Source: Oribacterium asaccharolyticum ACB7 (GTDB lineage: Bacteria; Bacillota; Clostridia; Lachnospirales; Lachnospiraceae). From it: a DNA stretch of 64,000 bases. How positions within the stretch are numbered: position 1 is the stretch's first letter; each line of letters opens with the position of its first letter. Below the pieces are notes generated by a model that was given only the letters and a program-made list of their open reading frames with translations, was not told where the DNA came from and ran no database searches. The stretch covers positions 591,904 through 655,903 of the forward strand of contig NZ_JH414505.1 in NCBI RefSeq assembly GCF_000238075.1, written 5' to 3'. Positions 8,934 through 55,304 of this stretch are shown piece after piece. The position numbers and the translations under genes are program-made.

Positions 8934-9713
8934 ATGATTTTAGCCATTGACTGCGGAAATACCCACACCAATTTCGGATGCATCCGGGAAAGCGGAGAAA
9001 TTGCACAGATTTTCTGCATGGAAAGTAATCGCAAAAAGACCAGCTACGAGTATGCGGCGGACATCGATGAAATCTGTACTCTTCTTAAGATTTCCGCCCA
9101 CGACTTCCAGGCCATGGTGCTGTCCTCCGTTGTACCGGAGCTCACCGGCTCTTTTCAGGAAGCCGCCGAGATTTTAGGCATTCGTGAGTGCTTCATTGTA
9201 AACCGGGAAAATGTTTCCGCCGTTTCCTTTTCCGCCGCATCCTACGCGGACGTCGGCCCGGACCTGATTGTTTCCGCTGTTGCGGCCAAGAAACGCTATC
9301 CGCTTCCCGCCATCATCATCGATATGGGTACCGCCAGCACCCTGACTGTAGTGAATCGGGAAGGGGTATTTATGGGAGGCGTCATCCTCCCCGGCGTAGG
9401 TATTTCCATGAATGCTTTGGCAAAAGAAACCTCGCTCCTTCCTTCTATTGACGTTGCTCCCGCGAAGAAGCTGATTTCCTTAAATACCGTCGATGCCATG
9501 CGTTCCGGTATTATTTACGGTACGGCAGGCTCCTTGGACGGCCTCATCGACCGCTTCTTAAAGGAACTCGGACAAGAAGCCACCCTTCTTGCAACCGGCG
9601 GGCTTTCCCATCTGATTTGTCCCTACTGCAGACATTCCATTATCGTAGATGAAAATCTGCTACTCACGGGCTTATGGGAGATTTGGACGGACTCCCGAAA
9701 GGCAGGCGCATAG
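8934..9713 (+). CDS. coaX: Type III pantothenate kinase
   Basis: A 259-residue cytoplasmic enzyme that phosphorylates pantothenate, the first committed step of coenzyme A synthesis. Motifs of the ASKHA-fold type III family are present in order: ILAIDCGNTHTNFG (phosphate loop), SSVVPELT, GPDLIVSAVAAKKRYPLPA and the catalytic-site IIDMGTASTLTVV followed by GGVILPGV. AAGGGAG precedes the ATG. It shares an operon with the upstream S component, which fits uptake plus trapping of the vitamin. The stop codon lies in the first unit of a 31-bp tandem repeat, five bases from the stop of the convergent ABC permease gene. Confidence 0.95.
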   Translation: MILAIDCGNTHTNFGCIRESGEIAQIFCMESNRKKTSYEYAADIDEICTLLKISAHDFQAMVLSSVVPELTGSFQEAAEILGIRECFIVNRENVSAVSFSAASYADVGPDLIVSAVAAKKRYPLPAIIIDMGTASTLTVVNREGVFMGGVILPGVGISMNALAKETSLLPSIDVAPAKKLISLNTVDAMRSGIIYGTAGSLDGLIDRFLKELGQEATLLATGGLSHLICPYCRHSIIVDENLLLTGLWEIWTDSRKAGA

Positions 9714-9803
9714 GTCTGTCATAAGAAGAAAGGCGAGCGCATAGGCCTGTCATAAGAAGAACGGCAGGTACATAAGCCGATTGCCAGAAGGATGGCAGGT
9801 GCC
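9701..9803. repeat. Tandem repeat, period 31 bp, between convergent genes
   Basis: Units begin at GGC in 9701, 9732, 9763 and 9794. Units 1 and 2 share CATAGG-CTGTCATAAGAAGAA; units 3 and 4 are decayed copies. The stops of coaX (9711-9713) and of the ABC permease (9719-9721) both lie in unit 1, so units 2-4 encode the last residues of the permease. Confidence 0.75.
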
Positions 9804-12091
9804 ACAAGATCTCCTTCCGTGCCTTTTAAGAATAAGCCGACGGGAGAGAGATAAGGCAGGTACTTTACCCATCCGCTTAGGGCACTAAAATCCATAAAAG
9901 CGCCTCCCGAAAGGCAGAAAAACAGGCCCAGATTCAAGCTGAGTCCGGTCTCCGCTCCCTCTCCGAGCACTCTTACGGAAAGAAAGCGGGAGAAGCCGAA
10001 GAGGAAGAGCGTGTAAGAAAGAAGGGACAGCAACGCATTAAAACTGAAGTCGAGCCGGAGGGCAAAGAAAAAGCAAAGACTGATGCCCAGAAAGACGAGA
10101 AAGAGCCCGATCAGATATCTTCTGCTTGCACCGGCTATACTTTGCAGTCGGGCGCCGACTCTTTTTTCTTCTCCTTCTCCGGCAACGGAAGCCAGGGAGA
10201 ACAGAAAGAAATAGAGCAAAAAGGCATAAACCGCCTCTCTTCGCGGAGAGAAGAGCTCTTCCCGCGTTGCACCGTTTTGTTTTCTCACCGTATATAACGG
10301 ACTCGTTCTTTTATATTGTTTTTGATTTTTCGTAAGCAAGTCTTGTTCATCCGCACGGATTTCCCGCCCCAAAAGAGAGGAGAGATAGTCGTTCGCCCCT
10401 CTTTCAATCTTCTCGCCGGCCACGACAGCCGCTACGATTTCTCTTAGCCCCATTTCCGAAAGGGAGGCGCTACCGCTCTCATAGAGGAGCTTTCCCTTTT
10501 CTTCCTTATCTCCGGTATAGCCTTTCCGAATCGTCAGTACACCTTCCTTATCGCCATAGAGGAGCTTTTCCTCCTTTTCCCTTTCCGGAATGAGCCGGAT
10601 CTCCAGGCTCTTTTCCGCGTCCAGGTCTCTAAGCAGTTCCCGACTCCACTCTCCACCGTCCTCATTCACAAGATAAAACGCTATTTTTTCCTGCGTCTTA
10701 TCCCCGGCATATCTTCCAAGACAGAGGAAAAACAGAAGAAAAAGAAGCACTCCGACCGTTCTACCCAGCAGAATATAGCCTCTCCACAAAGGGAAAGGAA
10801 GGCAGTGCATCAGGAATTGTTTTCCCCGGATTCTGTCTTCTTCAAAACCCCTTCTCTTAGGAAACACCGTTTCCTTTTCGAGTAGGCCTCTCTTCTCCGG
10901 CACTCTTTCCTTTTCTAGCGAACTTCTCTTCTCCGTAAAGCTGTGCATAAAGCGAAGCAGAATTCCCAAAAGGAGGAACAGCCCGAGCGGCAGGACGAAA
11001 GGCATTAAACGCACCGGACTGTATCCGCGCCGCAGGCCTTCCAAAAGGACGGCATTGATGCTGATCGGGGAGAAACGCGCCAGAGAAAAAGGCAGCCTTC
11101 CCGCGCTAAACAGCCTCCCCGTAAAGAGCAGGAGCAAGAAAATCAGACAAACAGAGAAGTTTTTCGCCAGTCGTTCCTCTCTTACAAGACTGAAAAGCCC
11201 CCAAAAGAAGAGATAAAAGCTGAGTAAGGAAAGGTTGTAATACAGGGCAAAAAAGAGAAGCAATTCCGGTGACAAGGCAAAAGCCTTGTAAAGAAAAAGA
11301 AGCGATAACGCGAGAACCGGAAGGGCAAGAAGCAACAGAAGCAGGAATTTTGAGAGGTAAAAGCCCCTTCCTCCCATTTGCCTGAAGCGGGAAACAATGC
11401 CCTTCTTTTCCTCCTCCGGAACGGCGGACACCATAGACAGGCTGATAAAGGATAGAAAAAGGAAAAGCAGGGCGGAGGCAATCCGCATAACCAGCGCAAA
11501 CGCTACATTTGCCCCAACTTCCTCATTCTGAAAAATAAGCTGCCTCTTTAAAACCGAATTAAGCAATCGTTCCGAAGCCCTGTGATAGAGTTCTTCCTCT
11601 TCCGAAGCGGAGAGCTTCTCCCCGTAAGCCGTATGAAAAACAGCAAGACTCATCTCCTGTTCTTTTTCCATGATTTTCATAATGGAGGTGAAAACCGATT
11701 CCAGAATAGCGCTTTCCGTAGCTCTTCTTTCGTTTAAAATCAGCTCCACGGGCTCTCCCTGAAAACGATAAGCCGTATAAAAGAAATCCTTCGGAATGCG
11801 CAGAACGCCGACACTTCCCTTTTCCAATTCTTCCGAAATGTCCTCTCGACTGATTTTATGCACTTCCGAAAAAAGCTCCACCTCTTCCATTTGCCGAATG
11901 AGGGTTTTCGACATCAGGGTTTCATCCTCGTCAATCACCGAGACCGGGAAAGCTTGCAGACCGCCGGAGTTTCCCCGGAAGAAAAAGAGAAAGAGGGGAA
12001 GTAAGAGAAGCGGAAATAGAAGGGAGAAGAGTCCCCCTTTTCGAAAGAACAAACACATATCCTTTTTTAAGGCTGCCAGAAAGCCATTCAT
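9719..12091 (-). CDS. ABC-2 type exporter permease, two permease modules fused
   Basis: A 790-residue membrane protein made of two ABC-2 permease modules in tandem. Module 1 (about residues 1-390) has a first helix LLFPLLLLPLFLFFF, an extracytoplasmic domain beginning FPVSVIDEDETLMSKTLI (the typical ABC-2 pattern) and a cluster of helices. Module 2 (about 420-790) repeats this: first helix VGVLLFLLFFLCLG, IAFYLVNEDGGEWSRELLRDL, then six helices. Most ABC-2 permeases have one module and dimerise; here one chain supplies both. It overlaps the ATPase gene by four bases (ATGA) and must work with it. The cargo is unknown. The C-terminal tail of about 20 residues is encoded by a decayed tandem repeat. 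Confidence 0.88.
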   Translation of the reverse strand: MNGFLAALKKDMCLFFRKGGLFSLLFPLLLLPLFLFFFRGNSGGLQAFPVSVIDEDETLMSKTLIRQMEEVELFSEVHKISREDISEELEKGSVGVLRIPKDFFYTAYRFQGEPVELILNERRATESAILESVFTSIMKIMEKEQEMSLAVFHTAYGEKLSASEEEELYHRASERLLNSVLKRQLIFQNEEVGANVAFALVMRIASALLFLFLSFISLSMVSAVPEEEKKGIVSRFRQMGGRGFYLSKFLLLLLLALPVLALSLLFLYKAFALSPELLLFFALYYNLSLLSFYLFFWGLFSLVREERLAKNFSVCLIFLLLLFTGRLFSAGRLPFSLARFSPISINAVLLEGLRRGYSPVRLMPFVLPLGLFLLLGILLRFMHSFTEKRSSLEKERVPEKRGLLEKETVFPKRRGFEEDRIRGKQFLMHCLPFPLWRGYILLGRTVGVLLFLLFFLCLGRYAGDKTQEKIAFYLVNEDGGEWSRELLRDLDAEKSLEIRLIPEREKEEKLLYGDKEGVLTIRKGYTGDKEEKGKLLYESGSASLSEMGLREIVAAVVAGEKIERGANDYLSSLLGREIRADEQDLLTKNQKQYKRTSPLYTVRKQNGATREELFSPRREAVYAFLLYFFLFSLASVAGEGEEKRVGARLQSIAGASRRYLIGLFLVFLGISLCFFFALRLDFSFNALLSLLSYTLFLFGFSRFLSVRVLGEGAETGLSLNLGLFFCLSGGAFMDFSALSGWVKYLPYLSPVGLFLKGTEGDLVAPAILLAIGLCTCRSSYDRPMRSPFFL

Positions 12092-12720
12092 TCTCTTATC
12101 TTCCCATCCTCTAAATACACGATTCGATCCGCCATTTCCTCCAATTCTCCTCTACCGTGGCTGATGAGAAGCATGGCCGTGCCCTGTGCTTTCATTTTCC
12201 GAAGAAGAGACAAAATCCTCTCATAAGATTCGTTGTCGCACCCTACAGTCGGCTCATCCAGAAGGAGAATAGCCGGTCTTTTCATGAGCGCAGAGGCTAA
12301 GTGCACTCTTCTCTTCATTCCGCCGGACAGGGTGGAGAGGCGCTCTCCGGCTTTCTCTTCCAACCCCAGTTCCCTAAGAAGCCAAGTTGCCCTTGTAAAA
12401 ATCACCTTCTTCGGAAGCCCCTGTATCTTTCCGTAAAAATACAGATTCTCCATGGCCGTAAGACTCTCATAAAGAGAAAGGTCCTGCGGCAGATAGGAAA
12501 GCTCTTTTTGGACCTTCGGCGCAAAGCGAATCTCTCCCTCTCCATAAGGAAGAAGCCCTGCTAGAGCCTTTAAAAGCGTACTCTTTCCGGCTCCGTTTTC
12601 TCCCCTTATGCCCAGGATCTCCCCTTTATGGAAAGAAAGGGAGAGCCCTTTCAAAACCGCTCTCCCCCCTCTTTGGTAGTGAAGTCCCAGATTCCTTATC
12701 TCGCAAATCTGCTCTTCCAT
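12088..12720 (-). CDS. ABC transporter ATP-binding protein
   Basis: A 210-residue ATPase with Walker A GENGAGKSTLL (near residue 40), Q-loop YLPQDLSLYESLTA, signature LSGGMKRRVHLASAL, Walker B ILLLDEPTVGCD and the switch histidine in LLISHGRGE. The GGMKRR signature and sequence order are typical of ABC-2 exporter ATPases (CcmA/DrrA-like). GGAGG precedes the ATG. It overlaps the fused permease gene and follows the zinc-ribbon protein gene by only 19 bases, so the three probably form one transcript, linking this exporter functionally to the zinc-ribbon membrane protein. Confidence 0.94.
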   Translation of the reverse strand: MEEQICEIRNLGLHYQRGGRAVLKGLSLSFHKGEILGIRGENGAGKSTLLKALAGLLPYGEGEIRFAPKVQKELSYLPQDLSLYESLTAMENLYFYGKIQGLPKKVIFTRATWLLRELGLEEKAGERLSTLSGGMKRRVHLASALMKRPAILLLDEPTVGCDNESYERILSLLRKMKAQGTAMLLISHGRGELEEMADRIVYLEDGKIRE

Positions 12721-12739
12721 CTATGATTTTCCTCCATTA

Positions 12740-14719
12740 CTATCCGCCAAAAACTTCCTCCCCAATATTCCGGATTTCAGAAGAAAACTCGCTCATCAAG
12801 TCATAGAGCTCGTCGGTGGAATAATCGGTAATGTCCTCCGTCTTTCCCTTGGGCTTGGATATATCCGCGCCTTCCTTCACGTTAATATGTAGAGTCATCG
12901 AGCGGATATCATTGTAGTCTAAGTCATACAGCCCGCTCATTTTCAACTCACAGTCCGTACTGTTCTTTTTTCCGGCCTTTACGGTAAGGGTTACCTTTCC
13001 GTTATCCCCTTCAATGTCTCTAAACTTATACTCTCCATAAGGAAGAATCTGATACTTCTTTCCCGTCTCGATAGTATAGTCCGTTTTATTTAAATAGAGA
13101 GTGTCCAACATTCCGGTAATCGTTCCATCCAGTGTTTTCCCTTTTTTCTTATACGTATTCCAAAGATAGACCACCGAAGAATAACCGTCCGGAGAAATAT
13201 TAAAGAATTCCGCCACTTCCTCTTTGTCTTTCCCCGATGCCAGCACAAAGTAGGATTCTTCCTCCGTGTCCAGTTCTCCGTTGTCATCGTTGTCAGCGAA
13301 AAGATAGATTTCGTGCAGGGTCTTTCCCTCTACTCCCACTACCCAGGTAAGGTTATTGTCTTCCAGCTCCTCCCCTATGTCTTCCGCATTATCACGGAGC
13401 CTTTCGGCAAGGTCGGAAAGCTGCTCGGCAGTGGATTCATTTCTTCCGTATCCGGAGATTAACTCAAGATACTTCCCGTAAGCGCCCTGTTCAATAAACT
13501 TCTCGAGGTCCTTGTCCTTTTCCATCATATCGGCGAGCTTCTCTACAAATTTCTCAATTTCTTCCGCCTTAGGCTTAAAGGTATACCTTGTCCCCTTATA
13601 TTTTGTATCTTTCAAATCCTCATCCAGATGCTCTATTGTGAAGGTTCCCTTCTCCGTAGTGAGATTCTTCTTGTTCATCGACTTGGAAAGGAGTACCCCG
13701 TACTTCGCTAAAAGCTTCTTTCCGAGTTTCCGATTTTCCTTTGATTTCTTCAAATCCGGAATCTGCACCTCTTCTCCCGTATTATTTTCGAGCAAGGTCT
13801 TTACATCCGCTGTATAAAGCTTCTTATCGATGGACGGGAAGGCAAAAGAAAAGTTTCCATTATCATATTCACCGTAAGCATCCAGTACCGAGTTTCCCGT
13901 CAGTTTGACCAGCAAGCTTGCCTGGAGATTTCCCTTATCCAGATTGGTCTTTGTCTTAAGAACCAGAGAACTGTCTTCCAGATACTCCGCAACCTCTTTA
14001 TTGCCTTTTACTTCTCCGGTCACAGTGAAAGTCAAAGCCCGATTGTCTTCCATGCGAAGCAGTCCAAGGTCCTCCATGGCTTTCAGTTTGCCGTTAAAAT
14101 AATCCGTCTGATAGCCAAGGAACTTTTGTCCCGGAGTTCCGCCTCCCAAAAGCTGCATCGGATTGAAGCCGCCGAATACTTTTCCCAATGCCACAAAACC
14201 GATGATTACAATCAATACAACGGCCGCAACCCCAATCAGAAAATATGGGGGCTGTTTCTTCTTTTCTTCCGGAGTCTCCCGACTCTGCCCGTTATCCCCC
14301 GGCGCTCCGGCAGGCTCTCTATATACCGCCTCTTCCATCATCGGCGCAATCAGTACTTCGGAAACCGGTTCCGGAGCAGGCTCCGCAGCCTGAATCTCCT
14401 CCGGCACTTCTACAGCCGGTTCCGATACCGGCACTTCATTCACTGCCTCCGATACCGGCACTTCGTTTGCTACAGATACCGGCACTTCGGAGGCGGGCTC
14501 TTCCTTTGCCGGCTCCGTTACCGCTTCAGCAGCAGGCTCGGTCACGGGGGCTTCCTCTACTGTATCTGCGTTAGGCTCGGTCACGGGTGCTTCCTCTACT
14601 GTCTCCGCAGCAGGCTCGACACTCTGCACAGGCTCTACCGGCTCCAGCTTTTCTCCACAGTTTGTGCAGAACCGGAATCCTTCACTAACTTCTTTTCCAC
14701 AATTCGGACATTTTGCCAT
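12740..14719 (-). CDS. Zinc-ribbon single-pass membrane protein, paralogue 1
   Basis: A 659-residue protein. It begins with a zinc ribbon (CPNCGKEVSEGFRFCTNCG, four cysteines), then a linker of about 120 residues rich in Ala, Glu, Pro and Val with short repeats such as EEAPVTEP and NEVPVSE, one membrane helix (PYFLIGVAAVVLIVIIGFVALG) and an outer domain of about 470 residues starting GQKFLGYQTDYF. With no signal peptide, the zinc ribbon should face the cytoplasm. Three paralogues follow upstream on the same strand, all with the Q-KFL-YQ-DY-motif, the KTKT-DKG--QAS pattern and a closing KGKT-DI-DY segment. It is directly upstream of the ABC exporter genes. No known enzyme motif is visible in the outer domain; function unknown. 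Confidence 0.85.
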   Translation of the reverse strand: MAKCPNCGKEVSEGFRFCTNCGEKLEPVEPVQSVEPAAETVEEAPVTEPNADTVEEAPVTEPAAEAVTEPAKEEPASEVPVSVANEVPVSEAVNEVPVSEPAVEVPEEIQAAEPAPEPVSEVLIAPMMEEAVYREPAGAPGDNGQSRETPEEKKKQPPYFLIGVAAVVLIVIIGFVALGKVFGGFNPMQLLGGGTPGQKFLGYQTDYFNGKLKAMEDLGLLRMEDNRALTFTVTGEVKGNKEVAEYLEDSSLVLKTKTNLDKGNLQASLLVKLTGNSVLDAYGEYDNGNFSFAFPSIDKKLYTADVKTLLENNTGEEVQIPDLKKSKENRKLGKKLLAKYGVLLSKSMNKKNLTTEKGTFTIEHLDEDLKDTKYKGTRYTFKPKAEEIEKFVEKLADMMEKDKDLEKFIEQGAYGKYLELISGYGRNESTAEQLSDLAERLRDNAEDIGEELEDNNLTWVVGVEGKTLHEIYLFADNDDNGELDTEEESYFVLASGKDKEEVAEFFNISPDGYSSVVYLWNTYKKKGKTLDGTITGMLDTLYLNKTDYTIETGKKYQILPYGEYKFRDIEGDNGKVTLTVKAGKKNSTDCELKMSGLYDLDYNDIRSMTLHINVKEGADISKPKGKTEDITDYSTDELYDLMSEFSSEIRNIGEEVFGG

Positions 14720-14781
14720 GTCTTTTCTCCCTTCAAGCAGGCACGGACATTGCCGGCCTTTTCTCCTGTCTTATAAGCTGT

Positions 14782-14810
14782 AGCATAACATAAAAGGGGA
14801 AAGCCTTCAA
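14782..14810 (-). promoter_or_regulatory. Promoter of zinc-ribbon paralogue 1
   Basis: Minus-strand TTGAAG (14805-14810), 17 bases, TATGCT (14782-14787). The same arrangement with the same -10 occurs ahead of all four paralogues. The -35 lies in the loop region of the terminator hairpin of the upstream gene. Confidence 0.6.
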
Positions 14811-14826
14811 ATGGCTATCCCCTTTT
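14792..14826 (-). terminator. Terminator after zinc-ribbon paralogue 2
   Basis: A 14-bp stem with one mismatch (arms 14792-14805 and 14813-14826, each with AAAAGGGG/CCCCTTTT ends) around a seven-base loop. It lies 60 bases beyond the stop of paralogue 2. The run of T on the plus side would also allow termination in the other direction. Confidence 0.65.
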
Positions 14827-14885
14827 TTCTGTGAAATGCTCTGTGCATTGTCTTCTTCACACTTTTTCGATAGACTTTCCGAGCT

Positions 14886-16610
14886 TTAGTTACCGAATAT
14901 TTCCTCTCCAATATTCGAAAGTTCCTCCGAGAATGCCTCTCCCAGCTCCTTCACCTCATACAAAGTGTAGTCGGAAATGTCTACCGTCTTTCCCTTCGGT
15001 CTGGAAAGATCCGCCCCTTCCTTCGCATTGACCTGGATGCTGAGGGTTTTGATTTCGGGTAAATAATCCTCTTCTAAGCCGCTGATTTTTATTTCATAGT
15101 CTGTACTGTTCTTTTTTCCGTCTTTTACTGTCATCTTACCTCGAAGCCCATCGCCTAAAGCATCGCTAAAATCATACTCACCGTACGGTAAAGCTAACAT
15201 CTTATCCTTCTTCCCTTTTTCCACAGAATATTCAATGTGTCTAAACGGTGATACAGGAAAAATAGGGCTAAGGAGATAAAAATTCCCATCCAGCGTTTTA
15301 CCCTTATCCGTATATACATTTTTAATGAAAAAAGCCTTCGCGTCCTCCCTTAGGCCAAAGCCGAAAAGATCTGCTCTGATTTTTTCATGCCTCCCGCTAA
15401 TGCAGTTAAAGAAGATCCTATCTCCATCTTCCCACTTAAATTCATCGTCATCCTCTATATCTGTTCCTATTTGAATTTTCCGGACTTCCTTCCCCTCCAT
15501 GGTAAGTACCCACATAATATGCTTCTCTTCGAGCTCTTCTGCAAGTTCTTCCGCGTTCTCGCGAAGCCAATCGGCAAAGTCTGCTAAGCGGCTCTCATCT
15601 ATAAATTCATAATAAGCTATGTGCTCTGAAATCATTATACCGAGTCCGCTTTGTATCAGAAATTTTGCGCAGTCCTCATCCTTTTCCAGCTTATCGGCGA
15701 TTTTCTCCAAGATTCCCTCCAGATCTTCCGCGCTTGGCTTAAATCTGTAAATGGTACCCTCAAATTCTTCCTCTTCGAAGCCCTTCCCATAAATCGGCAT
15801 CGTAAATCTTCCCTTTTCTACCGTGAAATTCTCTTCGGTGAAAAATTCGGAAAGCAGACTTCCGTATTTCTTGAATAACTTTTCGGCAAGCTTTCGGTTT
15901 TCCTTCATTTTGTTGAAGTTCGGAAGTTCTATCTCTTCATCCGATGAATGATTCAGGATGGATTGAAGTTCTCCCTGATAAAACTTCTTTTCCAGAGAGG
16001 GAAAAGCCAAGCCGAGTTTTCCGTCCGCATATTCACCATAGGCATCCAGCACATCTTCTCCCATAAGATTAAAGAGCAGGCTCGCCTGATAACTTCCCTT
16101 TTCCGGATTCGTCTTGGTCTTCATCACGATGGAAGAGTCTTCCAGATATTTTGCCACCTCTTTGTTTCCCCTCACCTCTCCGCTTATGGTAAAGGTGATA
16201 TTTTTTTTCGTTAGCGGAAAGATTTCCAAGGCCTCTACGTTCTTTAGCTTTTCATTAAAGTAATCCGCCTGATACTTTAGGAATTTCTGCTTCGGACTTA
16301 AAAAAAGTCCCATGGAAAGAACGGTCTTTCCCAAAAGCAAAACACCGACCAGAACCGCAATGAAAACAGCCGCTACGCCAATGAGAAAATAGGGTTTCCC
16401 TCCCTTTTTCTCCTTCGTTTCTTGTGAAGCAGCGCCACCCGAAGCCACATGCACCGGATTCACACTATTCTGCACCGGGGCTTCGCCTCCCACGGCCTCC
16501 TGCACCGGCGTTCCCTCTCCTACAGGGTGCTCCTCCAGCTTCTCTCCGCAATGCGTGCAAAACAAACAGCCGTCTTGTACCGCATTTCCGCAATTAGGAC
16601 AGTTTCTCAT
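14886..16610 (-). CDS. Zinc-ribbon single-pass membrane protein, paralogue 2
   Basis: A 574-residue member of the local family: zinc ribbon CPNCGNAVQDGCLFCTHCG at residues 4-22, a short linker (about 55 residues) with Gly, Glu, Val and Gln, a basic KEKKGGKPYFLIG junction, one membrane helix and an outer domain starting PKQKFLKYQADYFNEKL. It is almost identical to paralogue 3 (18560-20284) over most of its length, including the flanking promoter, which shows a recent duplication. The two differ mainly in the segment near residues 425-475 (around 15240-15370). ATG at 16610 follows AGGGGGAAAGTAC. It has its own promoter. Function unknown. Confidence 0.85.
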   Translation of the reverse strand: MRNCPNCGNAVQDGCLFCTHCGEKLEEHPVGEGTPVQEAVGGEAPVQNSVNPVHVASGGAASQETKEKKGGKPYFLIGVAAVFIAVLVGVLLLGKTVLSMGLFLSPKQKFLKYQADYFNEKLKNVEALEIFPLTKKNITFTISGEVRGNKEVAKYLEDSSIVMKTKTNPEKGSYQASLLFNLMGEDVLDAYGEYADGKLGLAFPSLEKKFYQGELQSILNHSSDEEIELPNFNKMKENRKLAEKLFKKYGSLLSEFFTEENFTVEKGRFTMPIYGKGFEEEEFEGTIYRFKPSAEDLEGILEKIADKLEKDEDCAKFLIQSGLGIMISEHIAYYEFIDESRLADFADWLRENAEELAEELEEKHIMWVLTMEGKEVRKIQIGTDIEDDDEFKWEDGDRIFFNCISGRHEKIRADLFGFGLREDAKAFFIKNVYTDKGKTLDGNFYLLSPIFPVSPFRHIEYSVEKGKKDKMLALPYGEYDFSDALGDGLRGKMTVKDGKKNSTDYEIKISGLEEDYLPEIKTLSIQVNAKEGADLSRPKGKTVDISDYTLYEVKELGEAFSEELSNIGEEIFGN

Positions 16611-16670
16611 GTACTTTCCCCCTTCAAACAGTAAACGTACCGCGTTATTTTGTTTTTCTCCTATTTTTGT

Positions 16671-16699
16671 AGCATAACATAAAAGGAGAGAGCCTTCAA
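16671..16699 (-). promoter_or_regulatory. Promoter of zinc-ribbon paralogue 2
   Basis: Minus-strand TTGAAG (16694-16699), 17 bases, TATGCT (16671-16676). The -35 is the last conserved piece before the foreign 1.8-kb insertion begins at about 16708. Confidence 0.6.
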
Positions 16700-16704
16700 A
16701 TGGC

Positions 16705-16887
16705 TATCGTTTTGAGCTTGTCAAAGAACGTGCGAAACTGAAAACTTCAGTATCTAGGCTTGTAAACATCCTGTTCCCGGAACTTGAGTCTCTTGTTCCG
16801 ACTCTGCACATGAACTCGGTATACCGTCTTCTTCAGGAACTGCCGGGAGCATATTTTATCGCCTCTTCTATTTTTGTCTTACTTTAA
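16705..16887 (+). pseudogene. IS110-family transposase fragment
   Basis: The plus strand encodes an uninterrupted stretch YRFELVKERAKLKTSVSRLV, then NILFPELESLVPTLHMNS and VYRLLQELPGAYFIASS, before running to a stop at 16885-16887. The KERAKLK-S-SRL--ILFPE pattern and the following LL-E-PGA are typical of the region after the DEDD domain of IS110 transposases. There is no start codon, no DEDD domain and no C-terminal Ser domain, so this is a scrap of about 55 codons out of some 400. It marks the left edge of the insertion between paralogues 2 and 3. Confidence 0.7.
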
Positions 16888-17149
16888 AGAAAATCTCTTC
16901 AATAATAACACTCAGCGCCATACAAATACCACATATTGCCCCCATATGAGTTCCTATTGATTTACCAAAATACTCTGATCCGGACTTTGTAAGTTCATAG
17001 ATAGGTATTCCAAGTATTTTGACGGTTAGTACATTTATATTTGTACTATATGCATTAGTAAAACCAAAATAGATTTTGACGCTCATAAGCAGCATCGCAA
17101 TAACAAATCCAACAGCCAAAGCAATTAGAATTCTATTTTTCATCTTCAT
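16868..17149 (-). CDS. Small membrane protein, unknown function
   Basis: A 93-residue protein with two hydrophobic helices: ILIALAVGFVIAMLLMSV after a basic MKMKNR start, and MGAICGICMALSVIIEEIFF near the C-terminus, followed by the basic tail KVRQK. The region between contains FTNAYSTNINVLTVKILGIPIYELTKSG, probably outside. No family was recognised. Its last codons overlap the IS110 scrap on the other strand. It lies in the inserted segment and its surroundings are more AT-rich than the flanking paralogues, which fits acquired DNA. No strong ribosome site precedes the ATG. Confidence 0.5.
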   Translation of the reverse strand: MKMKNRILIALAVGFVIAMLLMSVKIYFGFTNAYSTNINVLTVKILGIPIYELTKSGSEYFGKSIGTHMGAICGICMALSVIIEEIFFKVRQK

Positions 17150-17321
17150 ATTTTACCCCACTTCGTTTACTTGTACTATCAAAAAAGTATTGTATCTCTC
17201 AGAATATATTTTTCTCAAGCCATTAAATTACTGTACTTTCAATAGTTTTACAGCCAAAACACTTTGTTACCACTTAATCTAAGCTTCTAATTTACCTATC
17301 CCGACAGACAGGGATTTACCT

Positions 17322-17756
17322 CTACAAACGATATATCATCAGTCCATCGATAATACCACACTTTTGAAATCCATATTTTTCAGCTATCCGAATACTACTT
17401 TTTTGTTCAGGTACACATTCAATCACTACCTGTTTACCTGAGTTTCTAGCTTTTGCTATCATACCTGATGTCAAGCATGATGCAATCCCTAGCCCCCAAA
17501 AGAAAGGTTCTAAAACCCATCCAATCTCGACACTCTCTGAATCGTAATCATGATAAATCACATATCCGATGAAGTCGTTATCTTTTTCAACTGCGTATAT
17601 CAATGGTGTCTCAGAAAGACCGGATCGAAAGAGGAATTGCTCGGTCTGCTCTTTTGTGTAGGGTGCTTCGAGATATTGCATTACTTTCGAATTCGACAAA
17701 AGTTTGTAAAGCGGTTCCAAATCACTGACTGTCATTTTTCTAATTCTTATATTCAT
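17322..17756 (-). CDS. GNAT family N-acetyltransferase
   Basis: A 144-residue acyl-CoA-dependent acetyltransferase of the GNAT fold. It opens IRIRKMTVSDLEPLYKLLSN, has the strand DFIGYVIYHDYDSESVEIGWVLEPFFWGLGIAS, in which GLGIAS corresponds to the acetyl-CoA-binding loop (Q/R-x-x-G-x-G/A, here degenerate as WGLGIA), and ends with AEKYGFQKCGIIDGLMIYRL, the usual closing strand. The EIGWVL-P-F-G-G pattern places it near the RimJ/RimL group. The acceptor is unknown; it could be a protein N-terminus or a small molecule. It lies in the inserted 1.8-kb segment between zinc-ribbon paralogues. Confidence 0.85.
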   Translation of the reverse strand: MNIRIRKMTVSDLEPLYKLLSNSKVMQYLEAPYTKEQTEQFLFRSGLSETPLIYAVEKDNDFIGYVIYHDYDSESVEIGWVLEPFFWGLGIASCLTSGMIAKARNSGKQVVIECVPEQKSSIRIAEKYGFQKCGIIDGLMIYRL

Positions 17757-17800
17757 TCATACTCCACAACTTCTAATCTACCATTTTCTATTTTCCAGAA

Positions 17801-17829
17801 AAGCCCCCCATCGAAATGATGGAAGGCTT
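17801..17829 (-). terminator. Terminator after the HigA-like gene
   Basis: Minus-strand hairpin with arms AAGCC-CCATC and GATGG-GGCTT around a short loop, followed by TTTTC. It is about 105 bases beyond the antitoxin stop. Confidence 0.5.
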
Positions 17830-17932
17830 ACTATTATTTCTCACCTAATTGTTCATTGAGAAATAAGTATCGCATGTGAAACTCGCTCAATATTTGTTAT
17901 CACGAGATGTTATCAGAGTTTCCGATTTCGCA

Positions 17933-18226
17933 CTATTTTGCTAGGTGCTGGTTCGGTACAAACTCTATTCTCAGCGTCGAATTCACCGCTTCGGCGATAC
18001 GATTCAGTAAGGCCAAACTGGGATTCCTTGTGCCATTCTCCAATCTGCTGATATCTGCCTGACTGATTCCGGTTTTCTCAGATAACTCCGCCTGCGTAAG
18101 TCCTGCTTCCTTTCTCGCTCGAATCAAAGACATCGTGATGTCTCTCTCCGGCTGAAGAGCTTCATATTCCTTTCTAAACGCAGCATCCTGCATGAGTTCG
18201 TTAGTCAATTCCTGTAAATCGCTCAT
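17933..18226 (-). CDS. HigA-type antitoxin, XRE-family regulator
   Basis: A 97-residue DNA-binding protein. After an N-terminal helix (MSDLQELTNELMQDAAFRKEYEAL) it has an XRE helix-turn-helix, RKEAGLTQAELSEKTGISQADISRLENGTRNPSLALLNRIAEAV, followed by a short C-terminal strand TLRIEFVP. This is the layout of antitoxins paired with HigB/phage Gp49-like toxins. The ATG overlaps the stop of the decayed higB gene by four bases (ATGA). A perfect 20-bp palindrome lies upstream of the toxin remnant and is the likely operator. With the toxin broken, this is an orphan antitoxin that may persist as a repressor. Confidence 0.85.
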   Translation of the reverse strand: MSDLQELTNELMQDAAFRKEYEALQPERDITMSLIRARKEAGLTQAELSEKTGISQADISRLENGTRNPSLALLNRIAEAVNSTLRIEFVPNQHLAK

Positions 18227-18422
18227 CGTATGCTCTCCTTCCTTCTCAAGTAAATCGCTCTCCTCTGCTTTGCTAGCTGGATCTCACTTTGCGGCGTTTT
18301 CTGCTGCTTCTTGACAAAACCATTTGTCGCAATAATAATCTCATCTTCACGTCAAGCGTTCGAATAAAATCACCAACCGGTTTACTTCCATCTTCTTCTC
18401 GATAAAAATTCACACTAAACAA
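18223..18422 (-). pseudogene. HigB-type toxin remnant with internal deletion
   Basis: Reading the minus strand from a TTG at 18422 (AAAGGAG eight bases upstream) gives LFSVNFYREEDGSKPVGDFI and RTLDVKMRLL, matching the N-terminus of HigB/Gp49-like toxins (PF05973 type). From about 18340 a different frame gives NGFVKKQQKTPQSEIQLAKQ and RRAIYLRRKESIR, the conserved toxin C-terminus, ending at the antitoxin start. The middle of about 50 residues is missing and the two ends are out of frame, so no working toxin can be made. Confidence 0.8.
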
Positions 18423-18434
18423 ATCGCATCTCCT

Positions 18435-18454
18435 TTATGCTATATATAGCATAA
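18435..18454. promoter_or_regulatory. 20-bp perfect palindrome, probable HigA operator
   Basis: TTATGCTATATATAGCATAA reads the same on both strands. It lies 13 bases upstream of the toxin remnant start and partly overlaps a likely -10 region, as expected for an autoregulated toxin-antitoxin operator. Confidence 0.65.
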
Positions 18455-18559
18455 TGCATGTGGTTCACTCCGTCAATACCTATTAATTCCCCTTTTTCTG
18501 TACACTTCTTTGTGCATCACCTTCTATTTACTTTATTGATTCGATAGACTTTCCGAGCT

Positions 18560-20284
18560 TTAGTTACCGAATATTTCCTCTCCAACATTCGAAAGCTCCT
18601 CCGAGAATGCCTCTCCCAGCTCCTTCACCTCATACAAAGTGTAGTCGGAAATATCTACCGTCTTTCCCTTCGGTCTGGAAAGATCCGCCCCTTCCTTCGC
18701 ATTGACATGGATGCTGAGGGTTTTGATTCCGGGTAAATAATCCTCTTCTAATCCACTAATTTTTATTTCATAGTCCGTACTGTTCTTCTTTCCGGCTGTT
18801 ACCGTCATCTTACCTCGAGGCCCATCATAGCCTAAAGCATCGCTAAAATCATACTCACCGTACGGTAAAGCTAAGATTTTATCCTTCTTCCCTTTTTCCA
18901 CAGAATATTCCACACCTGCATAGTACCTAAAACCTCTTACGTAAAGATGACAATCTCCATCCAGCGTTTTCCCGTTATCCTTATATACGTTCCAAATATC
19001 AAAACCAATTTGGTCTCCTTGGACATCGCCGAAGCCGAAAAGCTCTGCTCTTATTTTTTTATACCTCCCACTAATGCATTCAAAGAATGTTCTATCTCCA
19101 GATTCCAAGTTAAATTCGCCATCATCCTCTAGATCAGTTCCTATTTGAATTTTCCGGACTTCCTTCCCCTCCATGGTAAGTACCCACATAATATGCTTCT
19201 CTTCAAGCTCTTCTGCGAGTTCTTCCGCATTCTCACGAAGCCAATCGGCAAAGTCTGACAAGCGACTCTCATCTATAAATCCATAATAATCTATTTGGTT
19301 TGAAATCATGATACCGAGTCCACTTTGTATCAGCAGTTTTGCACAGTCTTCATCCTTTTCCAGCTTATCGGCGAATTTCTCTACGATCCTCTCCAGATCT
19401 TCCGCGCTTGGCTTAAATCTGTAAATTGTACCCTCAAATTCTTTCTCTTTGAAGTCCTCCCCATAAATCGACATCGTAAAGCTTCCCTTTTCTACCGTAA
19501 AATTCTCTTCGGTGAAAAACTCGGAAAGCAGACTTCCGTATTTCTTGAATAACTTTTCGGCAAGCTTTCGGTTTTCCTTCTTCTTATTGAAGTTCGGAAG
19601 TTCTATCTCTTTATCGTATGAATTACTCAGGATGGACTGAAGCTCTCCCTGATAAAACTTCTTTTCCAGAGAGGGAAACGCCAAGCCGAGTTTTCCGTCC
19701 GCATATTCGCCATAGGCATCCAGCACATCTTCTCCCATGATATTAAAGAGCAGGCTCGCTTGATAACTTCCCTTTTCCGGATTGGTCTTGGTCTTCACCA
19801 CGATGGAAGAGTCTTCCAGATATTTGGCTACCTCTTTGTTTCCCCTCACCTCTCCGTTTATGGTAAAAGTGATATTTTTTTTCGTTAGCGGGAAGATTTC
19901 CAGTTTATCGAGATCGTTAAGCTTTTCATTAAAGTAATCCGCCTGATACTTTAGAAATTTCTGCTTCGGACTTAAGAAAAGTCCCATGGAAAGAACCGTC
20001 TTTCCCAAGACCAAAACACCGACCAGAACCGCAATGAAAACAGCCGCTACGCCAATGAGAAAATAGGGTTTCCCTCCCTTTTTCTCCTTATTTTCCTGCA
20101 AAGTAGCGCCAGCCGAAGCCGCCTGCGCCGCATTCACACTATTCTGCACCGGCTCTTCACCTCCCACGGCCTCCTGCACCGGCATTCCCTCTCCTACGGG
20201 ATGCTCCTCCAGCTTCTCTCCGCAATGCGTGCAAAACAAACAGCCGTCTTGTACCGCATTTCCGCAATTAGGACAGTTTCTCAT
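18560..20284 (-). CDS. Zinc-ribbon single-pass membrane protein, paralogue 3
   Basis: A 574-residue near-copy of paralogue 2: same zinc ribbon, linker, basic junction, membrane helix (PYFLIGVAAVFIAVLVGVLVLG) and outer domain. Differences cluster near residues 425-475 (around 18905-19050), where paralogue 2 has an unrelated sequence. ATG at 20284 follows AGGGAGAAAGTAC, and the promoter is the same as that of the other members. Its downstream terminator has been split by the 1.8-kb insertion: the CCCCTTTTT arm remains at 18489-18497 while the other arm lies beyond 16708. Function unknown. Confidence 0.85.
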   Translation of the reverse strand: MRNCPNCGNAVQDGCLFCTHCGEKLEEHPVGEGMPVQEAVGGEEPVQNSVNAAQAASAGATLQENKEKKGGKPYFLIGVAAVFIAVLVGVLVLGKTVLSMGLFLSPKQKFLKYQADYFNEKLNDLDKLEIFPLTKKNITFTINGEVRGNKEVAKYLEDSSIVVKTKTNPEKGSYQASLLFNIMGEDVLDAYGEYADGKLGLAFPSLEKKFYQGELQSILSNSYDKEIELPNFNKKKENRKLAEKLFKKYGSLLSEFFTEENFTVEKGSFTMSIYGEDFKEKEFEGTIYRFKPSAEDLERIVEKFADKLEKDEDCAKLLIQSGLGIMISNQIDYYGFIDESRLSDFADWLRENAEELAEELEEKHIMWVLTMEGKEVRKIQIGTDLEDDGEFNLESGDRTFFECISGRYKKIRAELFGFGDVQGDQIGFDIWNVYKDNGKTLDGDCHLYVRGFRYYAGVEYSVEKGKKDKILALPYGEYDFSDALGYDGPRGKMTVTAGKKNSTDYEIKISGLEEDYLPGIKTLSIHVNAKEGADLSRPKGKTVDISDYTLYEVKELGEAFSEELSNVGEEIFGN

Positions 20285-20344
20285 GTACTTTCTCCCTTCA
20301 AACAGTAAACGTACCGCGTTATTTTGTTTTTCTCCTGTTCTTGT

Positions 20345-20373
20345 AGCATAACATAAAAGGAGAGAGCCTTCAA
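20345..20373 (-). promoter_or_regulatory. Promoter of zinc-ribbon paralogue 3
   Basis: Minus-strand TTGAAG (20368-20373), 17 bases, TATGCT (20345-20350); embedded in the terminator hairpin of paralogue 4. Confidence 0.6.
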
Positions 20374-20389
20374 ACGACTCTCTCCCTTT
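20356..20389 (-). terminator. Terminator after zinc-ribbon paralogue 4
   Basis: Arms AAAGGAGAGAG (20356-20366) and CTCTCTCCCTTT (20378-20389) pair with one bulged base around a loop that holds the -35 of the next gene's promoter. About 30 bases after the stop. Confidence 0.55.
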
Positions 20390-20419
20390 CTTAATCCCTT
20401 TCTTTCGGAATCCTATTTT

Positions 20420-22267
20420 TTACTTCACTACATCTTCCAAACTCTCAAAAATATGCTCGAAGCCCTGCCCGAATTTTTCAGCAAGCTCCGACAATTCCTC
20501 TTCGGAGTAATCGGAGATATCCACGGCCTTTCCCTTCGGTGCGGAAAGTTTTGTCTTGTCCGAGCTGTTCAAGTTGATTTTCAGGGAATCAAATCCCAGG
20601 TAATAGGATTGCAGCCCGCTGATAACCAGTTCATGATCCGTACTGCCGTTTTTCCCCTCTTTAACGGTCAAATTTGCCTCTCCTCCCATTCCGGTCGGAT
20701 CCTTTACGGAATAGGTACCGTAAGGCATCAGAACAGACTTCTTATCCGTTTCAATGGAATATTCCAGTCCCTGAATATTAATGATACCGTTTCCGCCGGA
20801 AATACTTCCCTTCAATGTCTTACCCTTCTTTGTGTAGGTGTTGGTAAGATAATAGTTTTCACTGTCGGCAGGCTGTGCATTCAGCTGTTCCACGGTCTTT
20901 GCGCCGTCTTTTCCGCTCTCCAGGCTGTAGACTCCCTGATCCGAGGAAATCTTAATTTGGCGAAGCTCTTTTCCTTCTACGGCAATCTCCCAAGTGAAGT
21001 TTGCTTCTTCGATTGTCTTCCCCATCTCTTCCGCATTGTCCCGGAGATTCTCCGCAAACTTTGCAAGCTGCTCCTTTGCATCCGGTTCTTCTCCGAGCCC
21101 CATAGCCGCCTCGAATCCGTTACCATAGCTTCCCTGCTCCAAGAGGGTCTCTAAATCCTTATCCTTCTCCACCATCGTCGCAAGCTTTTCCATGAAGGCT
21201 TGTATGTCTTTTGCTTTTGGCTTAAAGGTATAAACCTCTCCTTTATAGTCCTTTTTGACGGAGTCCAGGGTAAACTTCGTTTTCTCCACTGTAAGATTAT
21301 CCTTGGTAATCAGTGTGGAGAGCAGAGCGCCGTACTTCTTTCTCAGCTTTTCCAGCGTTTTCTTATTCTCCTTAACCTGCTTTAAATCGGGCGTTTCATC
21401 CGCTTTTTCACCGGTCAGATTCTCATAAATTTTCTTATAATCACCCTTATAAAAGTTCTCGTCTATCGTCGGAACGGAAAAGCCGATTTTTCCGTCAACA
21501 TACTCACCATAGGCATCCAGGATATCACTTCCCATGAGCTTTAAGCCCATGTTCATCTGCAGACTGCCCTTATCCAGATCGGTTTTCGTTTCCAGAGTCA
21601 GCGCTGTATCCTCCAGATATTGATTAATCTCTTCGTTCCCTTCCACTTCTCCGGTCAGAACCAGTGTTGCTTCCTGATTCTCTTCCGTACTAAGGAAACC
21701 GAGATCCTCCAAGGCTTTAAACTTGTTCTCGAGGTAATCATACTGGTAGTTTAAGAATTTCTGTTCCGGGCTCAAGTTCAATCCGCCGGAAAATAAATTC
21801 TTGCCGAAGGAAAAGACAGCCGCCACAACAATGGCAAGCAAAAGGAACAGACCGATAAAGATAAGCGGTGAAACTCCTTTTTTCTTCTTTTCTTCTACCG
21901 TATATCTTGCATATTCCGGTGCCTGCTCCGCTGCAACCGGCGTTGGCTCCGCTGCAGGAGGTATCGGCTCCGCTACTGCTGCCGTTGCTTCCGCTCTCAG
22001 TTCTGCTGCCGCAGGTGTCGGCTCTACTGCAGGGGGTGTCTGCTCCGCTACTGCCGCTGTTGCTTCCGCTGTCGGTTCTGCTGCCGCAGGTGCCGCCGCT
22101 ACTGCCGCCGGACTCTCGTCCACTGTCTGCTCCGCAGCCTTAGGCTCCGCGGCGGGTTCAATCGTCACGGGCGTCGGCGCTGTTTCGGACTCCACCTTTT
22201 CTCCGCAATACGTGCAAAATACATCCTGATCCTGTAAATCTTCTCCACAATTAGGACATTTTTTCAT
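20420..22267 (-). CDS. Zinc-ribbon single-pass membrane protein, paralogue 4
   Basis: A 615-residue member of the array and the first in transcription order. Zinc ribbon CPNCGEDLQDQDVFCTYCG, then a long linker (about 95 residues) built from Ala, Glu, Pro and Thr with repeats such as EATAAVAEQTPPA and EATAAVAEPIPPA, a KKKKG junction, one membrane helix (LIFIGLFLLLAIVVAAVF) and an outer domain starting PEQKFLNYQYDYLENKF. The outer domain shares with its paralogues the KTDLDKGSLQ, LDAYGEYVDGKIGF and KAVDISDYSEEEL segments. GGGGAGG precedes the ATG. Function unknown; the cytoplasmic zinc ribbon and large outer domain suggest signalling or assembly across the membrane. Confidence 0.85.
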   Translation of the reverse strand: MKKCPNCGEDLQDQDVFCTYCGEKVESETAPTPVTIEPAAEPKAAEQTVDESPAAVAAAPAAAEPTAEATAAVAEQTPPAVEPTPAAAELRAEATAAVAEPIPPAAEPTPVAAEQAPEYARYTVEEKKKKGVSPLIFIGLFLLLAIVVAAVFSFGKNLFSGGLNLSPEQKFLNYQYDYLENKFKALEDLGFLSTEENQEATLVLTGEVEGNEEINQYLEDTALTLETKTDLDKGSLQMNMGLKLMGSDILDAYGEYVDGKIGFSVPTIDENFYKGDYKKIYENLTGEKADETPDLKQVKENKKTLEKLRKKYGALLSTLITKDNLTVEKTKFTLDSVKKDYKGEVYTFKPKAKDIQAFMEKLATMVEKDKDLETLLEQGSYGNGFEAAMGLGEEPDAKEQLAKFAENLRDNAEEMGKTIEEANFTWEIAVEGKELRQIKISSDQGVYSLESGKDGAKTVEQLNAQPADSENYYLTNTYTKKGKTLKGSISGGNGIINIQGLEYSIETDKKSVLMPYGTYSVKDPTGMGGEANLTVKEGKNGSTDHELVISGLQSYYLGFDSLKINLNSSDKTKLSAPKGKAVDISDYSEEELSELAEKFGQGFEHIFESLEDVVK

Positions 22268-22327: not shown

Positions 22328-22356
22328 AGCATAACATAGGACATAATTTATTTCAA
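22328..22356 (-). promoter_or_regulatory. Promoter of zinc-ribbon paralogue 4
   Basis: Minus-strand TTGAAA (22351-22356), 17 bases, TATGCT (22328-22333). Not overlapped by a terminator hairpin, unlike the other three. Confidence 0.6.
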
Positions 22357-38154: not shown

Positions 38155-38165
38155 GAAAAGGTCGC

Positions 38166-38279
38166 TAGGGGCGCTGTATGCTGAGAGGTGAAAACCGACC
38201 CTTTAACCTGACCCGGATAATGCCGGCGTAGGGAAGCTATACTCTTTGCCCCTCCCAGCCATTTTGGCATAAAGGAGGT
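38166..38279 (+). promoter_or_regulatory. TPP riboswitch with ribosome-site-blocking hairpin
   Basis: The thi-box is clear: AGGGGC (P1), CTGAGA, ACCCTTTAACCTGA, CCGGATAATGCCGGCGTAGG and the closing GCCCCT. After P1, CCTCC (38251-38255) can pair with GGAGG of the thiT ribosome site (38274-38278) around an inner GCC/GGC. The two pairings share three bases with P1, a switch that would act on translation. Thiamine pyrophosphate should lower expression of thiT. Confidence 0.93.
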
Positions 38280-38286: not shown

Positions 38287-38844
38287 ATGAAACAAAGTAC
38301 AGAGAAACTCGCATTTTCAGGGGTGTGCATCGCCCTGTCCATGGTTCTTGGAATGGTTAAGGTATTTTCCCTTCCCATGGGCGGATCCGTGACCGCCTGC
38401 TCCATGCTCTTTGCCACTCTGCCCGGCTTCTTTTTCGGAACGGGCTATGGTCTGCTTTCGGGCTTCGCCTACGGTCTAATCAGCTTCTTCTTAAAGCCGG
38501 AATTCTACAGTCCCGCACAGTTCGTTGTAGACTATATTTTTGCTTTTTCCGCGCTCGGTCTTTCCGGCCTGTTCAGTCGTAAGAAACACGGTTTGTATAT
38601 CGGCTATATCGTAGCCTGCCTTGGACGTTTCTTCTTCGCCTTCCTGTCCGGCCTGCTCTTCTTCGCCGCATATGCTCCGGAAGGCATGAATCCGGCATGG
38701 TACTCTTTCCTCTACAACATCAGCTATATCAGTATCGAAGCGGCTGTGACCATCGCTGTCTTACTGATTCCTGCCGTTCATAAGACAATTTATCGTTTAA
38801 AAGGAAAGTTCATCCGGGAAGAGCCGGTTCCGTTGCGGCCTTAA
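38287..38844 (+). CDS. thiT: Thiamine transporter, ECF S component ThiT
   Basis: A 185-residue membrane protein with six helices that binds thiamine for the ECF transporter. Family signs are GVCIALSMVLGMVKVFSLPMGGSVTACSMLFATLPGFFFG, the LLSGFAYGLISFFLKPEFYSPAQFVVDYIFAF segment and the ISYISIEA close to the end, where aromatic and acidic residues bind the vitamin in known ThiT. AAAGGAGG precedes the ATG. It lies directly behind a TPP riboswitch, which confirms the role. The stop overlaps the stop of the convergent Rpn gene by four bases. Confidence 0.95.
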   Translation: MKQSTEKLAFSGVCIALSMVLGMVKVFSLPMGGSVTACSMLFATLPGFFFGTGYGLLSGFAYGLISFFLKPEFYSPAQFVVDYIFAFSALGLSGLFSRKKHGLYIGYIVACLGRFFFAFLSGLLFFAAYAPEGMNPAWYSFLYNISYISIEAAVTIAVLLIPAVHKTIYRLKGKFIREEPVPLRP

Positions 38845-44985: not shown

Positions 44986-45783
44986 CTATTGGATATTCTT
45001 CTTCTGTTTCTTTTTCTGCCCTAAGCCCCAGAAAAGAAGAGATATCATGGAAACCAGTGCAAACATACCGTAGAGTGCCATGACACTGCCGTCGCCCGTA
45101 GCAACCTGTCTCAGTACACCGAGGACATCCGGTTTCTTCATCGTTACATCCGGAGTGGTAATCAGAGGTCTGTTTTCACCTTGTACAGTCGGAACCTTCG
45201 GATCCGGTGTATTGGTTCCCGGACTTGGCGGTCTGTTTCCTCCACCGCCCGGATTTCCGGGGGTTGAGCCTCGACTATAGCTATTGTTAAAGACAATCTC
45301 ATTCTTCTTTGCCAAATCTTCTCCGGTTCCCACCAGCACTACCGCTGTAAGATAAGGGGGAACAGGATTATCGTTCTCATCCTTTGTAAATTCCATTACC
45401 TTCACCAGAACCGTATAAACTGTCTGATCATAAGTGAAATAACTCTTATTGCCTGCCGTTTGCTTAATGAAATACTGATAATCTCCCTCTCTTGTGTAGG
45501 TCATTTCATTGAACTTCAGTTCATGTTGCTGTGGTCCCGCACTTGTTACCGTAAGCTCACTGGGACTTGCAATCGGCGTAATCGCCGCATTTCCGCTTGC
45601 CGGATCCACTTCCATGTTAATCTTATAGGTCTCTTCCGGAGCATTTCCGGAAATATTTACTTTAACAGGAATCTTCACGGATGCACTCTCTGCCGCTTTA
45701 GCAACCATTCCCAACCCTGCCGATAGGAAAAGCACAGCCGATAGAAGCTTGCCAGCCCTTATTAAAAACTCTTTTGCTTTCAT
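44986..45783 (-). CDS. Sortase-anchored pilin, FctA-like single domain
   Basis: A 265-residue surface protein. Signal peptide LLSAVLFLSAGLGMVAKA; then one pilin domain of the Spy0128/FctA type (KIPVKVNISGNAPEETYKINMEV..., with LKFNEMTYTREGDYQYFIKQTAGNKSYFTYDQTVYTVLVKV and a terminal NNSY), expected to hold a Lys-Asn isopeptide bond. A proline- and glycine-rich spacer follows, and the sorting region is QVATGDGS, then a helix MALYGMFALVSMISLLFWGLG and KKKQKK. The TG motif is close to the QVPTG/EVPTG sites of class-B sortase pilins rather than LPXTG. Smaller than the major pilin; probably the basal or anchor pilin. Confidence 0.85.
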   Translation of the reverse strand: MKAKEFLIRAGKLLSAVLFLSAGLGMVAKAAESASVKIPVKVNISGNAPEETYKINMEVDPASGNAAITPIASPSELTVTSAGPQQHELKFNEMTYTREGDYQYFIKQTAGNKSYFTYDQTVYTVLVKVMEFTKDENDNPVPPYLTAVVLVGTGEDLAKKNEIVFNNSYSRGSTPGNPGGGGNRPPSPGTNTPDPKVPTVQGENRPLITTPDVTMKKPDVLGVLRQVATGDGSVMALYGMFALVSMISLLFWGLGQKKKQKKNIQ

Positions 45784-45800
45784 CTCCGTTACTCCTCCAT

Positions 45801-46544
45801 TTATGGGTTCACTCTTACCATCACCACTGCTCTTCCGTTCGTTTCTACAGATACACAGGTAGACAAGGCCATAATCTGATCCGATTCCTTCATGCCGATG
45901 TCTCTGAAATTTGTAGCGTGATTTTTCAAATACTCTACAAGCTCCATAACATGACCTTTCTTTTCTTCTACATCATATATCATTCTGTCATACGCATCAC
46001 ACTCTATGACGGCAAAAACCTCCAACTTTCTTGCTTTTCCATCCGGTAAAAAAAGATGTCCTGTCAGGTGCTTATCAAAGTAGTCCTTCTCAATGAACTC
46101 CATGACATCCCCATACATTCCGCCGTTATCCATGTGGTGGCCATAGGTCAGCATATAGGGGTCGCTAAAGTCTGCTTTGTTTTCCACACTAAGAAAAATT
46201 GAGCCGGATAAGGAAAACTCACACATTACATCCTTATTAACATACTCCATATCGTCTCGTCCCTGAACCATGGGGTAGTCAATGTGTGTTCCGTCTAAAG
46301 TAATCCATGCTCTGGTATCCGGATTGATTGCCATAAGCTCTTGCAAGCTAAGCCTTGCTTCTTCAGGATTATCCAAGCTGGGTTTGTACTTTAGAAGATC
46401 ATCTTTCAGAAAGGCACCGCTCATCGTTACATAGGTGTCCCAAAGAGAATATCCTCCGAAGGACAACATAACCACCATAAGGATGATTGCAAGAAAGGAT
46501 AAAATCTTGTCGCCAAATCTGGCGGCACTTGCTACTACATCCAT
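45801..46544 (-). CDS. srtB: Class B sortase
   Basis: A 247-residue membrane-bound transpeptidase. One N-terminal helix (LSFLAIILMVVMLSFGGYSLW) is followed by the sortase barrel: AWITLDGTHIDYPMVQGRDDMEYVNKD, FLSVENKADFSDPYMLTYGHHMDNGGMYGDV with the catalytic His, and MALSTCVSVETNGRAVVMVRV with Cys230 and the arginines behind it. The layout (GHHM and STCV) is that of class B sortases, some of which polymerise pilins. It lies between the two pilin genes and should join the three sorting-signal proteins of the operon, with their (V/T)PTG or VATG sites, into a pilus. Confidence 0.93.
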   Translation of the reverse strand: MDVVASAARFGDKILSFLAIILMVVMLSFGGYSLWDTYVTMSGAFLKDDLLKYKPSLDNPEEARLSLQELMAINPDTRAWITLDGTHIDYPMVQGRDDMEYVNKDVMCEFSLSGSIFLSVENKADFSDPYMLTYGHHMDNGGMYGDVMEFIEKDYFDKHLTGHLFLPDGKARKLEVFAVIECDAYDRMIYDVEEKKGHVMELVEYLKNHATNFRDIGMKESDQIMALSTCVSVETNGRAVVMVRVNP

Positions 46545-46660
46545 GCTTTGTCCTTTCTACTCCTTTAACTTGTACACTGTGTGTACATGATAAACTTTGC
46601 TAAACTATCGTCTATTTTCACAAAATTTATAATCTACATACCCTGTATTTCCAGTATCCC

Positions 46661-46684
46661 TCCCGGGGAGCAAGCTCCCCGGGA
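46661..46684. other. Very stable hairpin between major pilin and sortase
   Basis: Perfect inverted repeat TCCCGGGGAGC / GCTCCCCGGGA with two central A. There is no following T-run on either strand, so it is unlikely to be a full terminator; it may limit read-through or protect the pilin mRNA end. Confidence 0.75.
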
Positions 46685-46797
46685 ATTATACTGATTCAAA
46701 ACTTTCCGTAAACCCCACCGAGTTTGGAGAAGAAGATTTGATTACTCGACAAGACTCGCAGAAATATTTTGAAGCTTAGTTAAAGAATATCGAGAAA

Positions 46798-48117: not shown

Positions 48118-48156
48118 TTTTTCTCCCCTTTTTTAAAAAATAGTAGAAGTGTGTGA

Positions 48157-48184
48157 TATATAAACAGAAGGTGTGCGCCTTCAA
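48157..48184 (-). promoter_or_regulatory. Possible promoter of the major pilin gene
   Basis: Minus-strand TTGAAG (48179-48184), 16 bases, TATATA (48157-48162), about 40 bases from the start codon. A GAAGG/CCTTC inverted repeat lies between the two hexamers. Confidence 0.4.
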
Positions 48185-48277
48185 TTTATTGAGTTACGTG
48201 AGGTACGGCTTTGCGCCGTTCTCATTTTCCATTGAAAAGTCTTATATTCTTTTCTGCTTAGCCGATATTACATCTGT

Positions 48278-48334
48278 CTAAGCTATCTCTTCCGATGCAG
48301 ATGCAACTGCTGTTGGAGACGCCGGAGTCGCCAT
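48278..48334 (-). CDS. Possible 18-codon leader ORF upstream of the pilin gene
   Basis: ATG at 48334 follows AAAGGAG by five bases and gives MATPASPTAVASASEEIA, then TAG. It sits with its ribosome site in the loop and second arm of a long inverted repeat. The peptide resembles nothing I know. The strong ribosome site is the main reason to report it; it could be a regulatory leader peptide or chance. Confidence 0.3.
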   Translation of the reverse strand: MATPASPTAVASASEEIA

Positions 48335-48417: not shown

Positions 48418-48480
48418 TGATATTTTTATAAGCTTTTCAATGAACTTGATAGGTTGTTACTATTTCAGAAAAGATTGGAT

Positions 48481-55258: not shown

Positions 55259-55304
55259 AAGCTACTGAAAGTTAATACGTAAAATTATAGCTTATGAAAT
55301 TGTA

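Follow-up and report, generated by a model that had tools for sequence, protein, structure and literature searches.

A zinc-ribbon membrane protein array beside a fused ABC-2 exporter in Oribacterium asaccharolyticum, and the recurrence of protein and exporter in clostridial genomes

Genes of the exporter locus

The window analysed in this study is a 64,000-nt stretch of the genome of the mouth bacterium Oribacterium asaccharolyticum ACB7 (contig NZ_JH414505.1, positions 591,904 to 655,903), in which four paralogous zinc-ribbon membrane proteins are encoded in an array with a fused ATP-binding cassette (ABC) exporter of the ABC-2 type. This arrangement, put forward in an original prediction made from the sequence alone, was confirmed. 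All genes of the array lie on the reverse strand. The zinc-ribbon proteins, referred to below as outer proteins, occupy 20420..22267, 18560..20284, 14886..16610 and 12740..14719, the last copy being next to the ATPase gene and also the subject of a structure model. The 210-aa ABC ATPase (12088..12720) was recognised by a match to PF00005 (E = 3.2e-33) and by motifs read in the sequence, a complete set comprising Walker A (GENGAGKST), signature (LSGGMKRR), Walker B (LLLDEPT) and H-loop. Together with a fused double permease carrying two ABC2_membrane_3 stretches (9719..12091; PF12698, E = 8.2e-44), it qualifies as an ABC-2 exporter. At one locus elsewhere (L146) the counterpart of the fused permease is split into two genes, which shows the long chain to be equivalent to two half-permeases. 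The C-terminal tail of the window permease differs from that of its O. parvum counterpart. A 31-bp tandem repeat of 2.3 copies (9697–9766) spans the convergent 3′ ends of the permease gene and a pantothenate kinase gene.

Anatomy and family matches of the outer protein

The outer proteins are predicted to consist of a zinc ribbon on the inside, a single membrane helix and a large beta-rich outer domain. The helix begins with a lysine-rich segment, as fits an N-in topology, and the anatomy as a whole fits an N-in/C-out orientation. Every one of the 21 exporter-linked outer genes whose start is intact, belonging to 20 full modules and to L062, has kept the zinc ribbon; two relatives lacking it (L055 and L144) were both unlinked to an exporter.

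No match of the outer domain to a well-characterised family with an unrelated role was found in the curated libraries searched, in keeping with the original prediction. When 26 diverse outer domains were compared with Pfam, no LolA-, LppX- or RseB-like family appeared among the best 25 of 45 weak matches, the other 20 ranking too low for any of them to reach a curated cut-off, and no sequence relation to LolA, LolB or LppX was found. Structure comparison suggested a weak likeness of the first 300 outer residues to half-barrel lipid-carrier folds; several of the nearest folds to the modelled outer domain were lipoprotein or lipid carriers, again with weak likeness. PADLOC models of anti-phage defence matched nothing beyond the generic ATPase. 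Searches of Pfam, NCBIfam, PADLOC, the PDB (by sequence) and open papers turned up no such pairing of exporter and outer family.

A zinc ribbon followed by a membrane helix is also seen in TcaA of Staphylococcus aureus, and the likeness lies at the start of the protein. Whole outer proteins stayed far below the cut-off of the NCBIfam TcaA model NF053815 (best score 17.9 bits versus 550), with matches confined to the first 28–34 residues and the rest of the model unmatched. A zinc-ribbon protein beside an exporter is already known from TcaA/TcaB, which share an operon (PMC10611510), although TcaB is an MFS (major facilitator superfamily) efflux pump and not an ABC-2 exporter.

This precedent inspires an alternative in which the outer domain would bind a lipid, wall fragment or antibiotic, and the helix and zinc ribbon would switch on the ATPase so that a toxic amphiphile is exported. 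Besides TcaA/TcaB-like logic, RseB-like lipid sensing could serve as a model, MucB being an RseB homologue. MucB stays on MucA until lipid signals antagonise the binding (PMC7400510), showing that a fold of this kind can respond to lipids as well. A flexibly linked zinc ribbon in the cytoplasm, retained in every linked intact outer gene, would suit signalling, and four differing outer domains beside one exporter would fit several signals. The short extent of the TcaA match argues against this sensor-and-gate alternative, which we consider rather unlikely though still a serious contender.

Co-occurrence of outer protein and exporter

The original prediction also implied that outer proteins and exporters should co-occur in other genomes, and this was found repeatedly: the full order outer protein–ATPase–permease was present at 21 loci in all, one of them (L148) truncated at the beginning. 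In O. parvum, O. sinus and two metagenome-assembled genomes (MAGs) of rumen Lachnospiraceae, a single zinc-ribbon protein is followed directly by the ATPase and the double permease. The rumen zinc-ribbon proteins showed 24–28% identity, and the genes flanking the module, common within Oribacterium, were different in the rumen MAGs. Five of 50 zinc-ribbon loci (L001–L004 and L034) contained the outer domain, and the permease was found in exactly those five (0/45 in the others). The search profiles were seeded by four of the five, L034 from a MAG titled Oscillospiraceae being the non-seed.

Across 397 genomes of the O. parvum family, the outer domain was matched in seven and the permease in eight, the latter comprising four strong (best > 280 bits) and four weak (73–87 bits) matches. 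All four strong-permease genomes were among the seven with the outer domain, an overlap with a chance of ~ 3e-8 under independence by our own arithmetic, which ignores kinship and includes two genomes that seeded the profile. The same four genomes carried both components in a genus set of 17, of which the remaining 13 gave neither an outer-domain match nor a permease match above 60 bits.

In the 350-genome family of the L034 genome (G808), called Oscillospiraceae here after the title of L034, the outer domain was matched in 26 genomes and scored above 80 bits in 18 of these. The ATPase and permease were adjacent in 13 of the 17 strong genomes other than G808 and lacking beside the outer gene in four (L132, L140, L144 and L145). 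Two of the eight weaker matches were fetched: L149 had no exporter genes beside the outer gene, but a contig border lies there, and L150 had an ATPase together with a half-permease of divergent sequence (54 bits). At E = 1e-15, no permease was detected in 63 genomes of this family without the outer domain, or in 17 whose outer domain was lone or weak (the L150 half-permease being below threshold); the positive control gave 3/3, one of which (G1034) was outside the profile.

Dependence between the components is one-sided, since no strong permease match without an outer protein was seen in the genomes searched, whereas eight genomes (G091, G394, G267, G945, G879, G1126, G1128 and G973) have the outer protein without any permease match. 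The latter could mean that the outer protein acts on its own in the wall or membrane and that the exporter serves a separate function, dependent on it in some species only. Consistent with this are G091 (L068), where three zinc-ribbon genes in a row, two of them tandem copies with the outer domain, stand without an exporter, and the two unlinked relatives without a zinc ribbon. Yet such independence sits poorly with a permease that, in its strong matches here, never occurred without the outer protein and with a gene order that is tight, often overlapping, in distant families. Gene surroundings, named by eye from open reading frames (ORFs), also speak against it. The G203 ATPase–permease pair has an nptA-like gene on one side and gap-pgk-tpi on the other, which is the site of the zinc-ribbon rows of G091 and G394 (L066; two genes, one with the outer domain, no exporter), flanked by an nptA-like gene and pgk-tpi; this suggests loss from a common module. 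A stand-alone envelope protein is, in our view, improbable. Outer protein and permease are both present but unlinked in G203 and G389, and in G005 the outer protein lies beside an ATPase with the permease elsewhere.

No fourth gene was common to more than four of 27 loci, and no kinase, regulator or other output gene was linked across lineages in these loci, a point against sensing and gating. The type VII neighbourhood of one genome, G015 (L063, L108 and L111), raised the alternative of an accessory exporter of a type VII (WXG100) secretion system. There the module comes right after a cluster encoding YukD, WXG100 proteins (five matches, four above cut-off), a VWA-FHA protein and PP2C, with a 1557-aa ORF, EssC-like by eye, farther upstream. 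However, this neighbourhood appears local, because WXG100 matches occurred in just two of nine strong-permease genomes (G005 and G015), without consistent linkage, and the module is missing from the type VII clusters in G006 and G019, making such a role very improbable. More zinc-ribbon proteins lie nearby in the G015 surroundings.

A possible three-part exporter

Outer protein, ATPase and permease probably work together to export some molecule, perhaps a fatty one. The sequences themselves show the three parts, a fixed order, repeated co-occurrence and an anatomy fitting N-in/C-out. Our tentative first choice, which we hold at slightly less than an even chance, is that the three conserved parts form one ABC-2 exporter, whose outer protein carries a hydrophobic or amphiphilic substrate. 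The ATPase and permease would push a lipid, glycolipid, lipopeptide or similar molecule out of the membrane, and the tethered outer domain would pick it up at the outer face and hand it to the wall or hold it, resembling carriers in Lol-type pathways. The flexibly linked zinc ribbon may contact the ATPase or the inner face of the permease, keeping the carrier at the pump or tying its state to ATP hydrolysis. Multiplication of the carrier to four copies in the window species would supply one pump with several outer domains, for different substrates or for dosage.

The original proposal of a sensor or export-assembly family with the exporter as partner was partly supported. Five lines of co-occurrence speak for the partnership; a carrier is favoured over a sensor because lipoprotein or lipid carriers are among the nearest folds and linkage to an output gene was not seen. 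The fold evidence is as weak for a carrier as for a sensor, which counts against our preferred reading as well.

ABC-2 exporters are likewise already known, and those of the ABC2_membrane_3 type, with permeases such as NatB, DrrB and Lnr, share the ATPase subunit and the PF12698 permease family. The present module differs in its fused permease halves (except in L146) and in having a third gene, encoding the membrane-tethered outer protein, without which this permease was never found in the genomes searched. In LolCDE with LolA/LolB, and with LppX, an ABC pump hands its substrate to a half-barrel carrier outside. That logic would be shared, but the outer domain here is larger, helix-tethered and joined to a zinc ribbon, and the module hosts are clostridia without an outer membrane. 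EipB of Brucella (DUF1849) is periplasmic, with no exporter partner named in the parts of the literature searched. We consider it rather unlikely, though plausible, that the module represents an undescribed clostridial class of tripartite exporter, in which a half-barrel carrier, tethered to the membrane and coupled through its zinc ribbon, takes over a lipid-like substrate from the fused double permease, with Lol/LppX-like hand-off without an outer membrane and carrier arrays widening substrate range.

The findings describe an exporter of three genes that is conserved in two families of clostridia, one component of which was missed by all curated libraries used. A true carrier would reveal the route by which hydrophobic molecules pass from an ABC pump to the surface of such cells; a true sensor would provide a direct signalling route from outside to the ATPase. 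The 21 loci are ready test objects, with the outer-protein-only genomes as natural controls.

Other features of the window

Four short elements lie on the reverse strand around the outer-protein genes, three between them (20342..20389, 16668..16708 and 14779..14825) and one beside the gene at 20420..22267 (22328..22356). A thiamine pyrophosphate (TPP) riboswitch (Rfam RF00059, 59 bits; 38157–38251) is located just upstream of an ORF at 38287–38844. The region 44986–53961, encoding an FctA/Spy0128-like pilin, a sortase-like protein just below the Pfam cut-off, a DUF7601 protein and an 1826-aa DUF7604 protein, looks like a sortase-assembled pilus locus. Finally, 54467–63996 encodes an SIS protein, an HAD-type phosphatase and a nucleotidyltransferase, a set which we take to resemble heptose-nucleotide synthesis, as well as a large protein that contains two glycosyltransferase domains and ends in a Wzt_C ABC ATPase, and is possibly a surface glycan export locus.
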